Below, piece by piece: positions 8,725-58,961 of a DNA stretch of 64,000 bases (position 1 is the stretch's first letter; the number at the start of each line of letters is the position of its first letter). A program made the position numbers and the translations under genes. The stretch is taken from NCBI GenBank assembly GCA_013911065.1, contig JACERV010000026.1:1-64000 (forward strand), in the 5' to 3' direction. The notes beneath the pieces were generated by a model. That model saw only the letters and a list, made by a program, of their open reading frames with translations. It did no database searches and was not told the origin of the DNA. Source of the DNA: Ruminococcus sp. GTDB lineage: Bacteria > Bacillota > Clostridia > Lachnospirales > Lachnospiraceae.

Positions 8725-10483
8725 TACTGGAACTATATATGGAATCAATGGTCCCATCATTTATATACAAGGTAACACGGGCTTTCGAATGTCAGAAATG
8801 GTACATGTTGGAAAAGAAAAGCTTATAGGCGAAGTAATTGCCCTGGATAAAGATTTAACTACAGTACAAGTTTATGAAGAGACAACAGGACTGTATCCCG
8901 GCGAAGAGGTTATTGCAACAGGAAACCCTGTTTCTGTAACTCTTGCACCTGGTATTTTGAATAATATTTTTGATGGTATCGAACGTCCTCTGGAAAAAAT
9001 TTCAGAGACAAGCGGCGCATTTATTTCCCGGGGTATCAGTGTCGACTCCCTGAACCAGGAAAAAAAATGGCAGACTCACATTACCGTATCAAAAGGGGAT
9101 TATTTAAATGGAGGAGATATTATTGCAGAGGTTCCGGAAACGAATGCCATTGTGCATAAATGCATGGTTCCCCCCTTTTTAGAAGGTACCGTTGTAGATG
9201 CGGTGGAAGACGGTGAGTATACAATTGATGAAACACTCATTACGCTGGAGCTCTCGGATGGCACCCGAAAAAACCTGACCATGACACAGTACTGGCCCAT
9301 ACGGGTAGCCCGCCCGGTCCGTCAGCGTTTTTCCGCCTCCACTCCGCTGATTACCGGACAACGTATCATTGACACCATGTTCCCCATTGCAAAAGGCGGA
9401 ACTGCTGCTGTTCCCGGGGGATTTGGAACCGGAAAAACAATGACACAGCACCAGATTGCAAAATGGTCTGACTCGGACATTATTATTTATATTGGCTGCG
9501 GGGAGCGTGGAAATGAGATGACCCAGGTTTTGGAGGAATTTGGAAGCCTCACAGACCCGAAAACCGGAAATCCTCTTATGGATAGAACTGTTCTTATTGC
9601 CAACACATCCAATATGCCTGTAGCTGCCCGGGAGGCCAGTATTTATACCGGTCTGACACTGGCTGAATACTATCGGGATATGGGATATGATGTGGCTATT
9701 ATGGCGGATTCTACCTCCCGATGGGCAGAGGCGCTGCGCGAATTATCCGGACGTTTGGAAGAGATGCCTGCGGAAGAAGGCTTTCCTGCATATCTTGCAT
9801 CCAGGCTTTCCACATTTTACGAAAGAGCTGGTATGATGCATAATCTAAACGATACAGAAGGCTCTGTTACAATCATCGGTGCAGTATCTCCCCAGGGCGG
9901 TGACTTTTCCGAGCCTGTCACTCAAAACACCAAGCGTTTTGTGCGCTGTTTTTGGGGGCTGGACAAGAGCCTGGCATACGCAAGGCACTTTCCGGCAATC
10001 CACTGGCTGACCAGTTACAGCGAATATTTGGGTGATTTGGCTTTTTGGTATCACGACCACGTTTCTCCCAAATTTGTAGATTACAGAAACCGCTTAATGG
10101 CACTTCTGAATCAGGAAAGCAGTCTTTTGGAAATTGTAAAGCTGATAGGGAGTGACGTATTACCTGATGACCAAAAACTGGTACTTGAAATTTCCCGGGT
10201 TATCCGCCTTGGATTTCTGCAGCAAAACGCCTTCCACAAGGATGATACCTGCGTGTCTATGGAAAAGCAGTTTCTTATGATGGACATTATTTTATATCTT
10301 TATAAACAATCTCGTGCTCTTGTAACAATGGGACATCCCATGTCCGTGCTGAAATCAGAAAATATTTTTGAGCGAGTCATTGCTATCAAATACGATGTGC
10401 CCAATGACAGGCTGGAGATGTTTACTCAGTACAGACGTGATATTGATACCTTTTATCAGAGGGTACTGGAAAAGAATGCGTAA
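8708..10483 (+). CDS. ntpA: V-type ATP synthase catalytic subunit A
   Basis: [43 protein letters not shown] Walker A and catalytic motifs. Confidence 0.98.
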
Positions 10484-10500
10484 GGAGGGATTACAAGCTC

Positions 10501-11886
10501 ATGTCAATAGAATATTTGGGACTCAGTAGTATCAACGGCCCTCTGGTCGCATTGGAGGGTGTACAGGATGCCTTCTTTAACGAACTGGTAGAATTTGTCG
10601 TAGGCGGCACAGAACGTAAAATCGGACGTATTGTAGAGATTTATGAAGACAAAGCAATCATACAGGTATTTGAGGGCTCGGAAAACATGTCCCTGAAAAA
10701 TACCCATACACGCCTTACCGGGCATCCTATGGAAATTGCCCTTTCACCGGATATGCTGGGACGGACTTTCAATGGCATCGGACATCCCATCGATGACCTG
10801 GGGCAGATTACCTCCACATTAAAAAGAGACGTAAATGGCCTGCCTCTAAATCCGGTTATGCGGGAATATCCCCGAAATTATATCAACACCGGTATTTCCG
10901 CTATAGACGGCCTGACAACCTTAATCCGGGGACAAAAACTCCCCATTTTTTCTGGTAACGGACTTCCTCACGACCAACTGGCAGCTCAAATCGTAAAACA
11001 AGCTTCCCTGGGAGGCGATTCGGAAGAACAATTTGCCATTGTATTCGCGGCTATGGGCGTCAAACATGACGTAGCAGACTTTTTCCGCCGTACATTCGAA
11101 GAAAACGGAGTTTCCGACCATGTAGCCATGTTCCTGAATCTGGCAAATGATCCGGTGGTGGAGCGTCTGATAACGCCAAAAGTAGCCCTCACGGCGGCAG
11201 AATACCTAGCCTTCGATCAGAACATGCATATCCTGGTTATCCTCACCGATATGACATCCTTTGCCGAGGCCATGCGTGAAGTATCCTCATCCAAAGGAGA
11301 GATTCCCAGCCGTAAAGGCTTTCCCGGATACTTATACAGTGAACTTGCAGCCATATACGAGCGTGCAGGCATCGTACACGGTGCAGGCGGCTCCGTGACC
11401 CAGCTTCCAATTCTGACCATGCCCAACGATGATATCACCCACCCAATCCCCGATTTAACGGGGTACATTACCGAAGGTCAAATTGTGCTGGAACGAGAAC
11501 TACACGGGCAGGCCATCTACCCGCCAATCAACATCCTCCCCTCCCTCTCCCGCCTCATGAAAGACGGCATCGGAGAAGGCTATACCCGGGAAGACCATCA
11601 GGATTTAGCAAACCAGCTTTTCTCTGCCTACGCAAAAGTAGGAGATGCCAGAAACCTGGCATCCGTTATTGGCGAAGACGAACTTTCTCCCATCGATAAA
11701 AAATACCTGGAATTCGGAAGATCTTTCGAAGAGAAATACATCGGACAGGGGAAAAACGAAAACCGCAGCATGGAAGAAACATTAAACCTGGGATGGGAAC
11801 TCCTCAGGCTGCTGCCCAAAGAAGAACTTGACCGCGTAGATACGAAAATACTCGATAAGTATTACAACGCAAAAGAGGACGCATAG
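10501..11886 (+). CDS. ntpB: V-type ATP synthase subunit B
   Basis: [42 protein letters not shown] and [11 protein letters not shown]. Confidence 0.98.
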
Positions 11887-50803: not shown

Positions 50804-51565
50804 TTATGAGAGCTTAATTTTTAACTTATGAATCTCGTAATGTAAATTTGATACATTCTCAGACAGTAGATTCACTGTATCATGGTCAATCTTAATGCCA
50901 TTAACTATAACCCTTAAACCTTCAAGCTTATCTTCCAGCATGTGGTAATTATTATTAGACTTTTCCTGTACAATGTCTAACTGCTGCAAGATACTATTCT
51001 CCGTACTCCTTAGGCGCTTATTAAACCTCTCTTCCATCTCCTCAAAGCGGCTGTCAATCTTATTAAACCTCGTTTCCAGGCCCCCAAAGCGGCTGTCAAT
51101 CTTATTAAATCTCGTTTCCAGGCCCTCAAAGCGGCTGTCAATCTTATTAAACCTCGTTTCCAGGCCCCCAAAGCGGCTGTCAATCTTATTAAATCTCGTT
51201 TCCAGGCCCTCAAAGCGGCTGTCAATCTTATTAAACCTCGTTTCCAGACCCCCAAAGCGGCTGTCAATCTTATTAAACCTCGCTTCCAGACCCTCAACGC
51301 GGCTGTCAATTTTATTAACCCCCGCTTCCAGACCCTCAACGCGGCTGTCAATCTTATTAAACCCCGCTTCCAGACCCTCAAAGCGGCTGTCAAGCTTATT
51401 AAACCTCGTTTCCAGCCCTCCAAAGCGGCTGTCAAGCATGTTCGATATAGCCTGCAATAATTCACGATCTACCATTCTAATTACCTCGCCTTCCTCTGTT
51501 CTCTTAATTTTTACTCTTTGTACTGCTATAAAGAGAGATTTGTCGTCGGCTTTTGCAAATCCCAA
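50804..51565 (-). CDS. Coiled-coil protein with ten 14-aa tandem repeats (SRFxGLETRFNKID)
   Basis: Repeated SRFGGLETRFNKID / SRFEGLETRFNKID. Confidence 0.85.
   Translation of the reverse strand: MGFAKADDKSLFIAVQRVKIKRTEEGEVIRMVDRELLQAISNMLDSRFGGLETRFNKLDSRFEGLEAGFNKIDSRVEGLEAGVNKIDSRVEGLEARFNKIDSRFGGLETRFNKIDSRFEGLETRFNKIDSRFGGLETRFNKIDSRFEGLETRFNKIDSRFGGLETRFNKIDSRFEEMEERFNKRLRSTENSILQQLDIVQEKSNNNYHMLEDKLEGLRVIVNGIKIDHDTVNLLSENVSNLHYEIHKLKIKLS
51020..51440 (-). repeat. 42-bp coding tandem repeat, ten units, partly in an alternating 84-bp pattern
   Basis: gcggctgtcaatcttattaaacctcgtttccaggccc(c/t)caaa repeats. Confidence 0.92.
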
Positions 51566-51982: not shown

Positions 51983-52669
51983 ATGAGGAAGCTTGATATT
52001 TTCAAAACTATACAACTGATTGTTTATATCATTCTAACCGGTCTCTGCGTTTTCAGAGTCATGACAGATTCTGAAGTCTATCATTATATTGCAACGAATT
52101 CTTCTATACGCATGATATGTGTTCTTTTATGGGTGGTGTTAGGAGTTTCCTTCTTATTTTTGTTTATTGATTTTAGCTTCTTTTCTTCTTTTAAAAGAGA
52201 TTACAGAGATTTAGATTTTGCCGTGCATTCGGACCCTCTTTCCGGTATTCCCAACCGTTTTAGCTGCGATGCTTTGATTGAAAAATACATGGACCAGCCT
52301 TTACCTGAGGATATTGGCTGTATTATGTTTGAGTTATCCAATATTGGGGAAATTAACCGCCTGTATGGTCATATTGAGGGAAATGCCCTTATCAAAGACT
52401 TTTCTAACATCCTTAAAACTGCTTCCATTAATTTATGTTTTATAGGGCGCAACGGGGGAAATAAATTTATAGCTTTATTTGAAGAAGGAAGCGAAAAGAA
52501 AATAGAAACTTTCCTTGAACGCATTTATTTTAAAGTGGACTCTCACAATTCAGGCTCTGACACCCGTCCAATTAATTATAAATATGGACGTGCCTTTCAT
52601 GAAGGAACTGAAGTCAGCACAATTACCGACCTGGTTGCACTTGCAAACAAACGGATTTACAATGATTAA
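51983..52669 (+). CDS. Degenerate GGDEF-domain protein (GGNKF) with two N-terminal TM helices
   Basis: SDPLSGIPNRFSCDALIEKY, FIGRNGGNKFIALFEEG. Confidence 0.82.
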   Translation: MRKLDIFKTIQLIVYIILTGLCVFRVMTDSEVYHYIATNSSIRMICVLLWVVLGVSFLFLFIDFSFFSSFKRDYRDLDFAVHSDPLSGIPNRFSCDALIEKYMDQPLPEDIGCIMFELSNIGEINRLYGHIEGNALIKDFSNILKTASINLCFIGRNGGNKFIALFEEGSEKKIETFLERIYFKVDSHNSGSDTRPINYKYGRAFHEGTEVSTITDLVALANKRIYND

Positions 52670-52711
52670 TTTCACTTGCTGCAGGACTGTATATGGAAGG
52701 TAGGTAGGTAG

Positions 52712-53281
52712 ATGGCAGAATTAGATTATCAATATATATCAACCTTGGTAATCCATGCGAGAACCGGGGACAGTGATTCCTTCGCAGAATTATATGCAGC
52801 AACATATCAGAAGGTATACCGCTTTGCATACAATTATTTGAAAGATGAATATCTGGCACAGGATGCCCTGCAGGAAACATACATACTTGCTCTCAAAAAT
52901 CTATATACTCTGAAGGATTCCAAGCTTTTTATATCCTGGCTGAATCAGATTAGCTTCAGGGTCTGCTTTAATATGCATCAAAAGAGAAAACGTTATAACA
53001 AAGAATTATCTGATTATGATAACAGCAGAACTCAAGAACATACAAAGCATCACGGAGACGTTGAATACCTGGAAGACCAAATTGTTAAAATAGATGAAAA
53101 AAATTACATTATGAAAAAAATTCTGGATCTTCCCCCGGCGGAGTCTCAAGCCATAGTTATGAAATATTATGAGAATATGAAACTGGACGAAATTGCCCAG
53201 GTAATGGACGTAAGCGGCAGTACGGTAAAACGTTATCTAAACCGTGGACGGGCAACATTAGGACAGCTGCTGGAACGTTAA
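52712..53281 (+). CDS. ECF-type RNA polymerase sigma factor
   Basis: FAELYAATYQKVYRFAYNYLKDEYLAQDALQETYI; LPPAESQAIVMKYYENMKLDEIAQVMDVSGSTVKRYLNRG. Confidence 0.93.
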   Translation: MAELDYQYISTLVIHARTGDSDSFAELYAATYQKVYRFAYNYLKDEYLAQDALQETYILALKNLYTLKDSKLFISWLNQISFRVCFNMHQKRKRYNKELSDYDNSRTQEHTKHHGDVEYLEDQIVKIDEKNYIMKKILDLPPAESQAIVMKYYENMKLDEIAQVMDVSGSTVKRYLNRGRATLGQLLER

Positions 53282-53296
53282 GGAGGTGCCTTACCT

Positions 53297-54022
53297 ATGT
53301 TAATAGACAAATTTAAGAAAGACAACGGACCTGTGCTGGATGAGAAAACAGCGGGGCAAATGTTGGAGAACATATTTGATGCATGTGAGGTAGAACCTAA
53401 TTCTGTTCCGCTTTCTGTGCTTACCTCCTACAGTAACTACCGTAGAGAACGTTTTTTGCTGCAAAGGCTCCTTCTCGCTATCATCATGTTATGTTTCTGT
53501 CTGGTGCCCTTGCTATTTATAACGCCTGATATACAATTGAATCCTCAGGGCAGTGCCCCGAAAGGAAAGCCCTCCTATGAACTTGTTGTGAATTCCCTGA
53601 TACCTGTCAGCAGAATAACAGCAACTGTGGATGGCAATCATGTTCCGGTATATGAGGTAGGTGATAAAACTTATTCTGTTGAACCGGTATCAAATGGAAC
53701 TATGACCGTTACCGTAACACTGAAAAACCGTCAATTTTCCTCGGAATCCCTAAATGTCTCCGGAGTTGACACGTCTTCACCCATAGTTTTATCAGACCGC
53801 CTGGCAGGAGACCTTGTTTACTTATATATCTCAGACCCGGATTCCGGGATTGACTATGAAGGAATCTCTGCAATGGATATTGATGGAAAAGAAATACTAC
53901 CTGCTTCTTATGATGAATCAGAAAATTATGTAGTCTTTGACCATCCCGAAAAGTCATTAAATATTTATATTCCCGATAAGGTCGGAAACACTCTTCATTT
54001 AATTCTTACAGTCAAGGAGTGA
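53297..54022 (+). CDS. Single-pass membrane protein, putative anti-sigma partner
   Basis: Cytoplasmic N-terminus, one TM (LLLAIIMLCFCLVPLLFI), extracytoplasmic beta-rich domain; directly after the sigma gene. Confidence 0.6.
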   Translation: MLIDKFKKDNGPVLDEKTAGQMLENIFDACEVEPNSVPLSVLTSYSNYRRERFLLQRLLLAIIMLCFCLVPLLFITPDIQLNPQGSAPKGKPSYELVVNSLIPVSRITATVDGNHVPVYEVGDKTYSVEPVSNGTMTVTVTLKNRQFSSESLNVSGVDTSSPIVLSDRLAGDLVYLYISDPDSGIDYEGISAMDIDGKEILPASYDESENYVVFDHPEKSLNIYIPDKVGNTLHLILTVKE

Positions 54023-54069
54023 GCTCACCGCACTCAATAATTTTAACTTTTGAAAGGGGGTTTGATGCG

Positions 54070-55005
54070 ATGAAGAGAAAAACACAGTTTATAAGTGTAT
54101 TTCTTATCATTTTCATCATGCTCCCTTTTTTTGCCGGCTGCTCCGGAAAAAGTAGCGATGTCTCCAATACTTCCGCTGCAGAAGTTAAAAAAAGAGAGAG
54201 TGCACTCCAGATTCTGCTTCCACAGTCAGGAGGTACTGTTACTTATGGAAATGAAATTGTTTCTATTGATGCCTCAAACACAAGCGAAGGATACGTGATG
54301 GTACAATACAATGGCGGGGCAGAAAAAGTAAAGCTTCAGATTACCATACCTGATGGAACGGTCTATACTTACACTTTATCCTCAGGTACCTATGAGACAT
54401 TTCCCCTCACTGGAGGAAATGGCCCGTATCACCTGGATGTACTGGAAAATGTAAGAGATGATCTTTATGCCCTTTCATTTGCCCAGGATATGGATGTTGC
54501 TGTTCATGATGAATTCCGGCCTTTCCTGTATCCAAATCAATATGTGTGGTTTACAGAAACTTCCAAAGCTGTAGAGCTTGGAAAAAAACTCTCTGATAAA
54601 TCAACAGACGATTTGAGTTATGTACAAAATGTATATTATTATGTAATTGAGAATATTTCCTATGATTATGAGATCGCAGAGAATACCCCCACCGATTATC
54701 TTCCAAACCTGGACAAGACCCTGGAGAAGAAAAAGGGAATCTGCTTCGACTATGCCTCCCTTATGGCTGCTATGCTGCGCTCCCAATCCATTCCCACAAA
54801 GCTGGAAGTAGGATACTCCGGTACGGCATATCATGCCTGGGTCAGTGTCTATTTAAAAGAAAGGGGATGGATAGATAAGATTATTGAATTTGATGGAGAA
54901 AACTGGTCTTTAATGGATCCGACTTTAGCCGCAAACAACAGTAAAAAATCTGTAGGTAAATATATTGGTGACGGAAACAACTATATCGTAAAGTATTCTT
55001 ATTAA
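54070..55005 (+). CDS. Transglutaminase-like lipoprotein
   Basis: Lipobox FFAGCSG; KGICFDYASLMAAMLRSQSIPTKLEVGY, YHAWVSV, WSLMDPTL (Cys-His-Asp triad). Confidence 0.9.
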   Translation: MKRKTQFISVFLIIFIMLPFFAGCSGKSSDVSNTSAAEVKKRESALQILLPQSGGTVTYGNEIVSIDASNTSEGYVMVQYNGGAEKVKLQITIPDGTVYTYTLSSGTYETFPLTGGNGPYHLDVLENVRDDLYALSFAQDMDVAVHDEFRPFLYPNQYVWFTETSKAVELGKKLSDKSTDDLSYVQNVYYYVIENISYDYEIAENTPTDYLPNLDKTLEKKKGICFDYASLMAAMLRSQSIPTKLEVGYSGTAYHAWVSVYLKERGWIDKIIEFDGENWSLMDPTLAANNSKKSVGKYIGDGNNYIVKYSY

Positions 55006-55023
55006 AATAACGGAGGACAGGCT

Positions 55024-56076
55024 ATGGATAAACAGGTGCAGGGAAAACCATTTTCAAATATGGAGATCTCCTCATTTTGCGGGCAGGTTGCTATGATTTT
55101 GCGTTCTGGAATTTCATCTATTGAGGGGATTACCATTATGCTGGAGGATGCTTCTTCCCCGGAGGAAAAAAAAATACTGCAGACTATTTTGGAAAATGTG
55201 CAGGAAACGGGGAGTTTGTACCAGGCACTGGCTGACACAAAGCTTTTTCCCTCTTATATGCTGCATATGATACAAATTGGAGAGGAAACCGGAACGCTGG
55301 ACGAGGTAATGTCTGCCTTGAACTTACATTATGACAGGGAAGATTCCATTGCCAAAAGTATCCGCAATGCCGTTACCTATCCTTTGATTATGTCAGGTAT
55401 GATGGTAATTGTAATCATTGTCCTCCTTGTAAAGGTAATGCCCATATTTAACCAGGTCTTTATTCAGCTTGGTACAGAAATGACCGGGTTTTCAAGGACG
55501 CTTATGAATCTTGGCAATACGATCAACCGGTACTCCATTGTATTTGCTGCCGCCTTAATCCTAATTACAGGTCTTATCCTGCTTGGAACCAGGACAGCAT
55601 CAGGCCGGCAGATTTCCAGAAGCTTTGGATATAGATTCAAATTTACCCGTATGATCTATGAGGAAATTGCTGCCTGCCGTTTTGCAGGGGGAATGGCTCT
55701 TACATTAAGCAGCGGACTGAATCCGGAGCGCAGCATGGAGCTGGTCAGCTCTTTAAATGAAGACACCCGTTTCCAGGAGAAAATTAATTCCTGCCGGCAT
55801 TTGCTTGATGAGGGCAAGGCTTTGCCGGAGGCACTGCATACCACAGGAATATTTACCGGGATGTATGCACATATGGTTTCTATTGGCGGAAAAACTGGTA
55901 CTATGGACCAGGTCATGGATAAAATCGCAGGACTTTATCAAGATGATATTGATACCCGGATGAATAATGGGCTTGCAGTGCTGGAGCCTACGCTGGTCAT
56001 CGCATTATCCCTGATTGTAGGAGTAATTTTACTGTCTGTCATGCTCCCTTTAATGGGAATCATGTCCAGCATTTAA
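55024..56076 (+). CDS. pilC: PilC/GspF-family inner-membrane platform protein
   Basis: FCGQVAMILRSGISSIEGITIMLED, MIQIGEETGTLDEVM, MVSIGGKTGTMDQVMDKIAGLYQDDIDTRMNNGLAVLEPTLVI. Confidence 0.92.
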   Translation: MDKQVQGKPFSNMEISSFCGQVAMILRSGISSIEGITIMLEDASSPEEKKILQTILENVQETGSLYQALADTKLFPSYMLHMIQIGEETGTLDEVMSALNLHYDREDSIAKSIRNAVTYPLIMSGMMVIVIIVLLVKVMPIFNQVFIQLGTEMTGFSRTLMNLGNTINRYSIVFAAALILITGLILLGTRTASGRQISRSFGYRFKFTRMIYEEIAACRFAGGMALTLSSGLNPERSMELVSSLNEDTRFQEKINSCRHLLDEGKALPEALHTTGIFTGMYAHMVSIGGKTGTMDQVMDKIAGLYQDDIDTRMNNGLAVLEPTLVIALSLIVGVILLSVMLPLMGIMSSI

Positions 56077-56077
56077 A

Positions 56078-56428
56078 TTGCAGGAGGCTATTATGACACG
56101 TTTTCAATACAAGAAAAACCAGTACACATACCGCAGGCTCATTCTCTCCATCTGTGTTTTCCTGCTTATTGTGATTTTCTTTTACCAGGGTATTGACTCT
56201 CTGTCTGAAAGCTCTCTCCGGCGTCAGAGGGAAAGCCTGGAAAATGCTCTGAACAGAAGTATTACTTACTGTTACGCGGTGGAAGGAAGCTACCCGCAAA
56301 GCCTGGCTTACCTAAAAGAACATTATGGACTTACTTACAATGAAAACAAGTTTTTTGTGGATTATAGAGTCAGCGGGGCAAATGTTCTTCCCGATGTGAC
56401 GGTAATTGAAATGGAGGAGGGAGACTGA
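56078..56428 (+). CDS. Pilin-like single-pass membrane protein 1
   Basis: N-terminal TM RRLILSICVFLLIVIFFYQG followed by helix and small globular domain. Confidence 0.6.
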   Translation: MQEAIMTRFQYKKNQYTYRRLILSICVFLLIVIFFYQGIDSLSESSLRRQRESLENALNRSITYCYAVEGSYPQSLAYLKEHYGLTYNENKFFVDYRVSGANVLPDVTVIEMEEGD

Positions 56429-56430
56429 TT

Positions 56431-56916
56431 ATGCGCTTTCGAAGCCAAAAGAATCACATGATTGATTTTTTATTTCCTGTAGCACTGCTTTTTGTATTTG
56501 CCGTTTCTGCACTGACAGTCATCCTGCTTGCTGCAAACATTTACCGCTCTGCAACGGAAAACTCTTCTTTGAACTATACCGCCGGAACTTCTCTTTCCTA
56601 TATTGCTGAGAAAATACATCAAAACGATGAAAAGGGAAATGTTTCTCTTGGAACCTTTGACGGACATGATTCTCTCATATTGAAACAGGAGTATAATGGG
56701 ACTGTCTATTTTACTTACATTTATACTGATGGAAATACATTAAAAGAATTATATGTAAAAGATGGCGCGCAGGTTACCGCTGATTCCGGCAAGCCTATTC
56801 TGATAGTGAAGTCTTTTACCATGGACACCGTTAATGAACATACTTTCCGTTTTACCTGCGTTGACGAAAAGGAGCAAAAGGTCTCCACAGTCGTCAGTGT
56901 CAGAAGCACACCATAA
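56431..56916 (+). CDS. DUF4860-like membrane protein / pilin-like 2
   Basis: IDFLFPVALLFVFAVSALTVILLAANIYRSATE, small beta-rich domain. Confidence 0.65.
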   Translation: MRFRSQKNHMIDFLFPVALLFVFAVSALTVILLAANIYRSATENSSLNYTAGTSLSYIAEKIHQNDEKGNVSLGTFDGHDSLILKQEYNGTVYFTYIYTDGNTLKELYVKDGAQVTADSGKPILIVKSFTMDTVNEHTFRFTCVDEKEQKVSTVVSVRSTP

Positions 56917-56927
56917 AGGAGAACACT

Positions 56928-57389
56928 ATGATACGCAGAAACCGGGCAAATTCATCCAGCCTGTTCCTCTTAGAACTGATTCTTGCAATCTTATTTTTTT
57001 CTATTGCAAGTGCTGTTTGCGTACAATTTTTTGTGAAATCCCATTTGCTCAGCCAGGATGCATGGAAATTGAACATTTCTGTCAATGAAGTTTCCAGTGC
57101 GACAGAATTAATACAGGTTTCCCCGGACGCCCGGTCTGCAATAGATTTGATTCATACAGAATACCCTGACTCAGAGATTTCTGATGTCTCAAAAATTTCT
57201 GTATACTATGACAGAGATTTTCTTTCCTGTGCGAAGGCCCAGGCGGTCTATTGCCTGGAAATAAGTTTTATACAAAAAGGTTCCATGCTGGATGCTGCGT
57301 TAAATATGAAAGAACAAAAGGATGAGAAAATCATCTATTCCCTTACCATATCCCATCATCTGCAAAGGAGGCCCGGAAATGGACAATAA
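56928..57389 (+). CDS. Pseudopilin-like membrane protein 3
   Basis: SSLFLLELILAILFFSIASAVCVQFF resembles a prepilin N-terminal helix but without Gly at -1. Confidence 0.7.
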   Translation: MIRRNRANSSSLFLLELILAILFFSIASAVCVQFFVKSHLLSQDAWKLNISVNEVSSATELIQVSPDARSAIDLIHTEYPDSEISDVSKISVYYDRDFLSCAKAQAVYCLEISFIQKGSMLDAALNMKEQKDEKIIYSLTISHHLQRRPGNGQ

Positions 57390-57888
57390 AAAGAAACAGA
57401 TTTCTATTGTAAATATTGGTTCTTCCTCCCTGCTTGTTGTGTTTCTTGTACTTTGCCTGGTAACCTTTTCCACATTATCCTTATCCAGTGCCAAAAGTAA
57501 TTATAATTTCAGTCAAAGGCTTGCGGACAGAAGAGCAGATTATTATGAAGCTTCCAGAAAAGCCGAACTTCTTCTGGATTCTATTGATAATGTCCTTGCA
57601 GAAATTTATGAAGCCTCCACCCTGCCTTACTATTCTGAAGCAGAGAAACGGCTTTCTGAATTAACTTTGAATGAAGATGTGAAGGACATTGTGCTGGAAA
57701 CAAACTTCTCCGCAAAGACTCCTTCCGTATCCTATGCCATATCTATCAATAAAAACCAGGCATTATCCGTTGTGCTTGAATTGACACCTGTGGACAATAC
57801 AGCGGAGGGATTCTATCAGATTAAACAGTGGAAGGCTGTTTCCACTGCTGATTGGGAAGGAAACAATACATTAAAACTAATCCAATGA
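57379..57888 (+). CDS. Pilin-like membrane protein 4
   Basis: N-terminal TM SSLLVVFLVLCLVTFSTLSLSSA followed by extended helix; likely start MDNKKKQ at 57379. Confidence 0.6.
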   Translation: MDNKKKQISIVNIGSSSLLVVFLVLCLVTFSTLSLSSAKSNYNFSQRLADRRADYYEASRKAELLLDSIDNVLAEIYEASTLPYYSEAEKRLSELTLNEDVKDIVLETNFSAKTPSVSYAISINKNQALSVVLELTPVDNTAEGFYQIKQWKAVSTADWEGNNTLKLIQ

Positions 57889-57905
57889 TTTAAAGGAGAT
57901 TCTAT

Positions 57906-58961
57906 ATGAACGCAAGATCAATCCTGGAGCAGGCCGTCACTGACGGAGCATCTGATGTATTTATTGTAGCAGGTCTTCCCGTGGCCTGCCGGAAAAATGG
58001 GCTTACCGCCCGTCTCTACAAAGATAAGCTGCTCCCCGTGGATACAGAAACTTTATTAGGTGAAATTTACCAGATGGCAGAAAACCGGGACATCAGCAGA
58101 CTTTATCAACATGGGGATGATGACTTTTCCTTTGCAATCCAGGGAGTATCACGTTTCCGTGTCAGCGCCTACAAACAAAGGGGTACCTTATCTGCGGTAA
58201 TTCGAATTATAACCTTTCAGCTCCCTGACCCGAAGGAGTTAGGAATCCCGGACCATATCATACAGCTTGGAAACAGCAGTAAAGGCATGACTCTTGTGAC
58301 AGGCCCTGCCGGAAGCGGGAAGTCTACCACTCTTGCCTGTATTATTCACCAGATAAATAAAACAAAATGCGGACATATTATCACCCTGGAAGACCCTTTA
58401 GAATTTCTTCACCGGCATAACCAAAGTATCGTAAGCCAGCGGGAAATTAACGTAGACACAGACAGCTATGTAAACGCTCTGCGGGCTGCCCTGAGGCAAA
58501 GCCCCGATGTTATTCTTCTCGGAGAGATGAGAGACTATGAAACAATAAACGTTGCCATGACGGCCGCAGAGACCGGGCACCTGCTCTTTTCTACCCTTCA
58601 CACAATCGGAGCCGCCAACACAATTGACAGAATCATAGATGTATTTCCGCCTAACCAGCAAAAGCAAATTGGCGTACAGCTATCCATGGTTTTGAATTCC
58701 GTTGTGTCACAGCAGCTGGTGCCTACAGTAGACGGCAAAGTGGTTCCCGCATTTGAGATCATGACTGTAACACCGGCTATCCGCAATATGATACGAGATA
58801 ATAAGGTGCATCAGATTGACGGCCTTATTTATTCTTCTGTAAAAGAAGACATGGTCTCCATGGACACCAGCCTGCTGAAGTTGTATCAGGCCGGCACCAT
58901 TAGCAAAGAGACTGCCTTAACATATGCTGCAAATCCGGAAATGCTGAGCAAAAAGCTTTAA
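57906..58961 (+). CDS. pilT: PilT-family twitching ATPase
   Basis: GPAGSGKSTTLACII Walker A; DVILLGEMRDYETINVAMTAAETGHLLFSTLHT; AIRNMIRDNKVHQI. Confidence 0.96.
   Translation: MNARSILEQAVTDGASDVFIVAGLPVACRKNGLTARLYKDKLLPVDTETLLGEIYQMAENRDISRLYQHGDDDFSFAIQGVSRFRVSAYKQRGTLSAVIRIITFQLPDPKELGIPDHIIQLGNSSKGMTLVTGPAGSGKSTTLACIIHQINKTKCGHIITLEDPLEFLHRHNQSIVSQREINVDTDSYVNALRAALRQSPDVILLGEMRDYETINVAMTAAETGHLLFSTLHTIGAANTIDRIIDVFPPNQQKQIGVQLSMVLNSVVSQQLVPTVDGKVVPAFEIMTVTPAIRNMIRDNKVHQIDGLIYSSVKEDMVSMDTSLLKLYQAGTISKETALTYAANPEMLSKKL

Follow-up and report, generated by a model that had tools for sequence, protein, structure and literature searches.

Can PilT and PilC make up a type IV filament machine without the extension motor PilB? 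The question is raised by a locus in a 64,000-nucleotide stretch of DNA from a Ruminococcus sp. of the family Lachnospiraceae (contig JACERV010000026.1; 'the window' below). There, ten co-directional genes at 51983-58961 on the + strand, with gaps of at most 47 bp and one 11-bp overlap, encode in this order a GGDEF-domain protein, an extracytoplasmic function (ECF) sigma factor, an anti-sigma candidate, a transglutaminase lipoprotein, PilC, four small proteins (S1, DUF4860, S3, S4) and PilT. PilT is generally seen as the retraction motor on a filament that PilB has built, and every type IV filament as beginning with prepilin cleavage. Comparative genomics establishes a PilT-only state for this cassette, and its small proteins are type IV pilin homologues in which the cleavage glycine has decayed while the acidic residue at +5 is kept (S3 and DUF4860).

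The original prediction, made from the letters of the window, had described nine tightly spaced co-directional genes. All nine were found where it had placed them, on the + strand, and a tenth belongs with them, the GGDEF gene 42 bp upstream. Its recognition of PilC and PilT is borne out by the profile scores given in the list, in which a slash marks the cleavage point and pLDDT is the predicted local distance difference test score of an AlphaFold2 model.

51983-52669 (+), membrane GGDEF-domain protein with a degenerate GGNKF signature, probably the first gene of the operon (GGDEF, 1.1e-14)
52712-53281 (+), ECF sigma factor (Sigma70_r4_2, 1.5e-13; TIGR02937, 1e-22)
53297-54022 (+), single-span membrane protein, anti-sigma candidate; adjoins the sigma gene, as its homologues do in relatives
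54070-55005 (+), lipoprotein with a transglutaminase/protease-like domain, C225-H255-D283 (Transglut_core, 3.2e-21; FAGC lipobox)
55024-56076 (+), PilC/GspF platform protein (T2SSF, 1.4e-45, matched twice; NCBIfam GspF/PilC)
56093-56428 (+), S1, pilin-shaped protein without a cleavage site (pLDDT 87; start amended to the ATG at 56093)
56431-56916 (+), DUF4860 protein, GspJ/PilW-like minor pseudopilin (PF16152, 2.6e-31; pLDDT 86)
56928-57389 (+), S3, pilin homologue in the PilV/GspI position (S/LFLLE where G/FTLIE is expected)
57379-57888 (+), S4, pilin homologue in the GspK/PilX position (G/SSSLL: Gly at -1, no Glu at +5)
57906-58961 (+), PilT retraction-type ATPase (TIGR01420, 405 bits against a cut-off of 319; Walker A, GEMRD Walker B, AIRNMIR)

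PilT without PilB

The assembly of the window genome (G000) is 95.6% complete and was searched by family profiles. Genome-wide, neither PilB (TIGR02538) nor an N_methyl pilin was found; PilM gave a single partial match under the cut-off (9e-4), and the search for PilN and PilO, which covered the operon, found none. ATPases of the T2SSE family (PF00437) occur at six places, one of which is the cassette PilT. Of the others, two lie in Tad (tight adherence) loci, two beside a TadB/C-like fusion, and the last, in a 749-aa frame, is weak. The pair beside the fusions forms two paralogous modules, each of a VirB11/TadA-like ATPase and a single TadB/C-like fusion of 504-508 aa (L009, G000:C34, 5171-7743; L010, G000:C9, 4478-7059), and the C9 module adjoins a VirD4-like coupling protein, which suggests mobile elements. 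The cassette PilC is the sole PilC-type platform of the genome and the cassette PilT its one PilT. The absence of PilB, first claimed for the window, thus holds genome-wide and is real in an assembly of this completeness. PilT also stands as the only ATPase of the machine, since there is no PilB and the remaining T2SSE ATPases are of Tad or mobile-element type or weak.

The claimed lack of a prepilin peptidase survives in part. No full-length PilD is encoded in the window genome, but three small A24 peptidases are, two inside Tad loci and one standing alone; the search used PF01478, which a very divergent peptidase could escape. The standalone peptidase (L012; G000:C44:18395-18706) has no pilus gene adjacent and could serve either the cassette or the Tad systems. 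The window PilT matches a solved PilT at 1.8e-96 (phmmer), and this match, together with its Walker A, GEMRD and AIRNMIR motifs, indicates that it should be an active retraction-class motor. With a T2SSE ATPase, a T2SSF platform and subunits placed in the pilin family by homology and fold, the cassette belongs to the type IV filament superfamily in the broad sense.

Of 246 genomes of the order, 74, from 44 of 117 genera, have the cassette by its DUF4860 marker. No PilB occurs in 33 of these 74, and 22 of the 33 are at least 95% complete; the genomes are drafts except for G193, G022, G045 and G232, single-contig assemblies that are all among the PilB-less carriers. Cassette and PilB are unlinked, PilB being no commoner in genomes with the cassette (41/74) than in the others (89/172). 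PilT is present in all 48 cassette genomes tested: 29 combine one PilT with no PilB, and in 14 of the 19 PilB carriers PilT outnumbers PilB by exactly one. G019 (100% complete) and G244 (99%) have no confident T2SSE ATPase besides the cassette PilT, and the PF01478 search returned no A24 peptidase in either. G037 and G114 resemble them (PilT alone, no A24) but are less complete; G057 has no A24 match, yet one further weak T2SSE match. The original prediction had allowed that a complete pilB, pilD and major-pilin locus elsewhere might use this PilC and PilT; the absence of PilB from the window genome, as from the 33 cassette genomes, speaks against it.

The four pilin-like proteins

None of the four small proteins had been thought to carry a canonical G/xxxxE site, and all had been considered probably uncleaved. 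A full class III signal (G/FxxxE) is indeed found in no subunit of the window lineage, the canonical motif being confined to other lineages, but parts of it persist. In class A, the type of cassette seen in the window and defined below, S3 keeps Glu+5 in 106 of 106 sequences while position -1 is Ser in 52, Gly in 27 or another residue, and DUF4860 has Asp or Glu at +5 in 100 of 108, with a mostly basic or polar residue at -1. S4 carries Gly at -1 in 103 of 104 class A and 11 of 11 class B sequences, Glu+5 being absent from both classes. This glycine persists even in peptidase-free genomes, so that Gly alone is no evidence of cleavage. The uncleaved state is well supported for DUF4860 and S1 and likely for S3; for S4 the retained glycine qualifies the claim.

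Pilin homology is seen most directly in relatives: the S3 homologues of loci L068 and L067 match N_methyl or TIGR02532 above the curated cut-off, as does the DUF4860 homologue of L070, whose neighbours are PilB, PilT, PilC and ordinary pilins. The DUF4860 model has a long helix and eight strands, and its ten best Foldseek matches (E 0.05-0.23, probability 0.75-0.99) include seven minor pseudopilins of the type II secretion system (T2SS; GspJ/XcpW/EpsJ) or their complexes and two of a Thermus pilin-like protein. In outline the S1 model resembles a pilin, with a 54-residue helix and a small alpha/beta end. Profile searches of the PDB with S1 and DUF4860 returned nothing meaningful, and no Pfam or NCBIfam family reaches its cut-off with S1, S3, S4 or the anti-sigma candidate; PF16152 itself is a domain of unknown function. 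The concern that the small proteins might not be pilin-like at all is answered by the canonical-motif homologues, the GspJ-type fold match of DUF4860 and the long-helix fold of S1.

Conservation, classes and companion genes

Beyond the order, the DUF4860 marker was found in 14 of 399 genomes across the phylum. An S1 profile, built for the collection scan on a closer alignment as the first was too diverse, has at least 511 relatives among GTDB species genomes. The best 80 of these belong to Lachnospiraceae and other Clostridia-type genomes; among the matches listed are Butyrivibrio hungatei DSM 14810, Faecalicatena contorta, Mediterraneibacter, Acetatifactor and Roseburia. Conservation of gene order across Lachnospiraceae, proposed earlier as a check, was found for the core: PilC-S1-DUF4860-S3-S4 keeps an all but constant order as far as the contigs reach (40 order-wide and 80 named loci). 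Against the nearest relative, VE202-21 (L089), the proportion of nonsynonymous differences (pN) is 0.09-0.26 and that of synonymous differences (pS) 0.64-0.85 in all ten genes, with synonymous divergence (dS) at or near saturation; pN lies far under pS in every gene, which indicates purifying selection.

The cassettes fall into two classes. Class A has the transglutaminase gene, PilT downstream or relocated, and a decayed cleavage glycine. Class B (family f22, part of f16, and L085) has PilT upstream, usually no transglutaminase, and an S3 with the canonical G/F[TS]L.E. Class A PilTs form one clade of the PilT tree (100/100) and class B PilTs another (100/98), both separate from most PilTs encoded beside PilB; class A PilCs likewise form one clade (100/100). 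PilC of class A and of f22 class B has 11-36 residues before the point that 64-76 residues precede in type IV pilus PilC, and in 36 of 37 class A proteins there are 25 or fewer, the pilus-type extension of about 50 residues being missing. PilB is missing from some class B genomes too (G022, G058, G155, G045), so PilB loss and motif decay are separate events.

Individual loci vary. G066 has three cassettes (contigs C7, C26 and C25; L059, L060 and L087), two of class A, one of them without PilT, and one of class B with canonical motifs. At the class B locus L085 (G172, 9717-10696) S1 is tandemly duplicated and the transglutaminase gene follows S4. Orphan PilTs with no adjacent PilC form a further clade (L169-L174, in G234, G166, G083, G222, G005 and G150), mostly in a lepA-hemW-comM-dprA-type neighbourhood; G234, G166 and G083 have no PilB. 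In Butyrivibrio loci (L110, L113, L114, L116, L117, L122, L123, L129, L145, L148 and others) a gene for a CheY-like receiver of 120 aa follows S4, in the place of PilT; profile matches labelling these proteins as GGDEF were rejected as mislabelling.

Among the companion genes, the original prediction had singled out a dedicated sigma factor as controlling the system. An ECF sigma gene lies upstream in 26 of the 58 named loci with enough flank, a subset, whereas the transglutaminase lipoprotein is the more constant companion, preceding PilC in 57 of the 58. Its C225-H255-D283 triad is invariant in 109 of 109 relatives and hence under catalytic constraint, and the enzyme is predicted to be catalytically intact. 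The GGDEF protein recurs upstream of the sigma or transglutaminase gene in many relatives, including many Lachnospiraceae; its signature, GGN[EK]F in most of them, is conserved yet degenerate, and judging by these residues it is probably not a cyclase.

At the 3′ end the operon closes with PilT, followed by a convergent gene for what is by sequence a P-type ATPase. A scan for promoters and terminators gave signal no better than the shuffle level, and PADLOC returned weak generic P-loop matches and no defence system. Just upstream, on the opposite strand, a protein at 50804-51565 (-) carries ten near-identical 42-bp (14-aa) repeats of the type RFNKIDSRFGGLET (array 51017-51435), coiled-coil-like, the number of which may vary among strains.

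Explanations and known systems

The explanation that we favour, and consider rather probable, is a reduced, PilB-independent branch of type IV filaments: a pseudopilus, short and for the most part uncleaved, that PilT would move across the Gram-positive envelope, with ECF-sigma control in a subset. S1, DUF4860, S3 and S4 would be inner-membrane proteins of pilin architecture that the PilC platform holds, DUF4860 playing a GspJ-like, S3 a GspI-like and S4 a GspK-like role. Most subunits of the lineage would go unprocessed by prepilin peptidase and so keep short basic cytoplasmic N-termini, and should form a short bundle of fixed composition, a pseudopilus or tip complex, in place of a long polymer. 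Uncleaved prepilins do not normally polymerise, and the minor pseudopilins GspI-J-K form a preassembled tip; both point to a short S1-S4 bundle on PilC. A PilT hexamer, the only dedicated motor, would dock on PilC and rotate or pull the bundle, so that the energy of ATP hydrolysis would drive movement across the thick wall; the piston mechanism and its direction we infer, and its output may be secretion, wall modification, sensing or DNA uptake. At its outer ends the bundle probably works together with the transglutaminase/protease-like lipoprotein or hands something over to it, and the sigma/membrane anti-sigma pair may control the operon in a Lachnospiraceae subset that includes the window lineage. 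More tentatively, at a little under an even chance, this would be a new functional class: a PilT-alone machine on permanently membrane-anchored, uncleaved pilin-fold subunits, with PilT as an independent force generator coupled to an extracellular transglutaminase/protease-like enzyme.

Several observations weigh against this picture. The PilT count covered cassette genomes. In Butyrivibrio-type genomes the cassette has no PilT of its own; their free PilT, an orphan from a different clade, adjoins comM-dprA, so that its pairing with the cassette is one that we infer. The Foldseek E-values of DUF4860 are no lower than 0.05, and S1 has no significant fold match, type IV pilins appearing only at chance level. 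Finally, the -1 Gly of S4, that of S3 in a quarter of sequences and the three A24 peptidases mean that some subunits could still be cleaved.

The strongest rival, though unlikely, is a true retractable filament that lacks a dedicated extension motor, polymerising spontaneously or through a bidirectional PilT and retracted by PilT. In shape and size S1 resembles a small major pilin, -1 Gly can persist in S3 and S4, and there are precedents that blur the role of PilT: extension of the mannose-sensitive haemagglutinin (MSHA) pilus of V. cholerae needs PilT (PMC9815625), and force-driven elongation proceeds without extension activity in Neisseria, while single bifunctional motors such as CpaF exist (PMC11656802). 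However, no subunit of the lineage has a full class III signal, G019 and G244 have no detectable prepilin peptidase, and normal helical pili are not expected from uncleaved prepilins. We consider somewhat less likely still a DNA-uptake pseudopilus replacing ComG, in which PilT would pull DNA-bound pilin-like proteins inward to ComEC. Retraction is the direction that uptake needs, the Butyrivibrio-type orphan PilT adjoins comM and dprA, and ComEC occurs in 25 of 26 cassette genomes, including those without another type IV filament machine. Yet ComEC is near-universal (10 of 14 control genomes) and so has no discriminating value, the comM-dprA neighbourhood is a common housekeeping one, the cassette showed no com gene, and neither a transglutaminase lipoprotein nor an ECF sigma factor has a known place in competence.

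It is very improbable that the cassette supplies accessory minor pilins to a conventional type IV pilus, borrowing PilB and PilD from elsewhere. About half of the cassette genomes do have PilB, usually in a full pilB-pilT-pilC-pilin locus, but the PilB-less carriers described above, some without any A24 peptidase, contradict this reading, as does the cassette's own PilC and, usually, its own PilT clade. A Tad component was rejected because the ATPase is of the PilT family and PilC a single two-domain protein, not TadA/CpaF with TadB and TadC. A decaying relic of a pilus operon, suggested by the lineage's loss of PilB, PilD and cleavage sites, can be set aside almost entirely, being contradicted by intact frames, near-constant order over many species, pN well under pS and the invariant catalytic triad.

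Sections of Denise et al. 2019 (PMC6668835) report repeated loss of PilT, and no PilB-less, PilT-only class is described in those sections. Searches of open-access papers on DUF4860, PilT without PilB and Lachnospiraceae pili yielded no description of the machine, which appears to be undescribed. Abundant gut bacteria (Butyrivibrio, Roseburia-like organisms, Acetatifactor, Mediterraneibacter and Faecalicatena) would have in it a so far unrecognised envelope machine, which is conserved in many gut and rumen species that keep PilT and PilC while PilB is often, and the peptidase sometimes, absent. The cassette offers a natural test of PilT and PilC acting alone, through which it can be asked which subunit contacts need cleavage and why Glu+5 outlasts the cleavage glycine. 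If the PilT-alone class is real, PilT is not merely the reverse gear of PilB.

In known systems pilins are moved by PilT and PilB acting on PilC, and piliation in S. sanguinis needs ten proteins, an extension ATPase, a peptidase and PilMNO among them (PMC6916266, PMC11656802). With the monoderm type IVa pilus of Clostridia and S. sanguinis the cassette shares PilC, PilT with all motifs and pilin-family subunits; it differs in its decayed cleavage sites, shorter PilC N-terminus and added transglutaminase lipoprotein, and the window genome lacks PilB, N_methyl pilins, full-length PilD and a PilM above cut-off. Like the Tad (type IVc) pilus, where CpaF drives both directions, it has one motor ATPase per machine, but this is PilT and not TadA/CpaF, with one two-domain PilC in place of TadB/TadC and no Flp pilin, and Tad loci are separate in the window genome. 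The monoderm ComG competence pilus also combines a few small pilins and one ATPase without a secretin, whereas the cassette has PilT and not ComGA, an operon without com genes and, in some genomes, no peptidase. Compared with the T2SS, the cassette has no secretin, is not canonically processed and has PilT where the T2SS has GspE; with the T2SS pseudopilus tip (GspH-I-J-K) and GspF it shares the GspJ-like DUF4860 fold, an S4 that like GspK is without Glu+5, and a platform gene with a few minor pseudopilin genes next to it.

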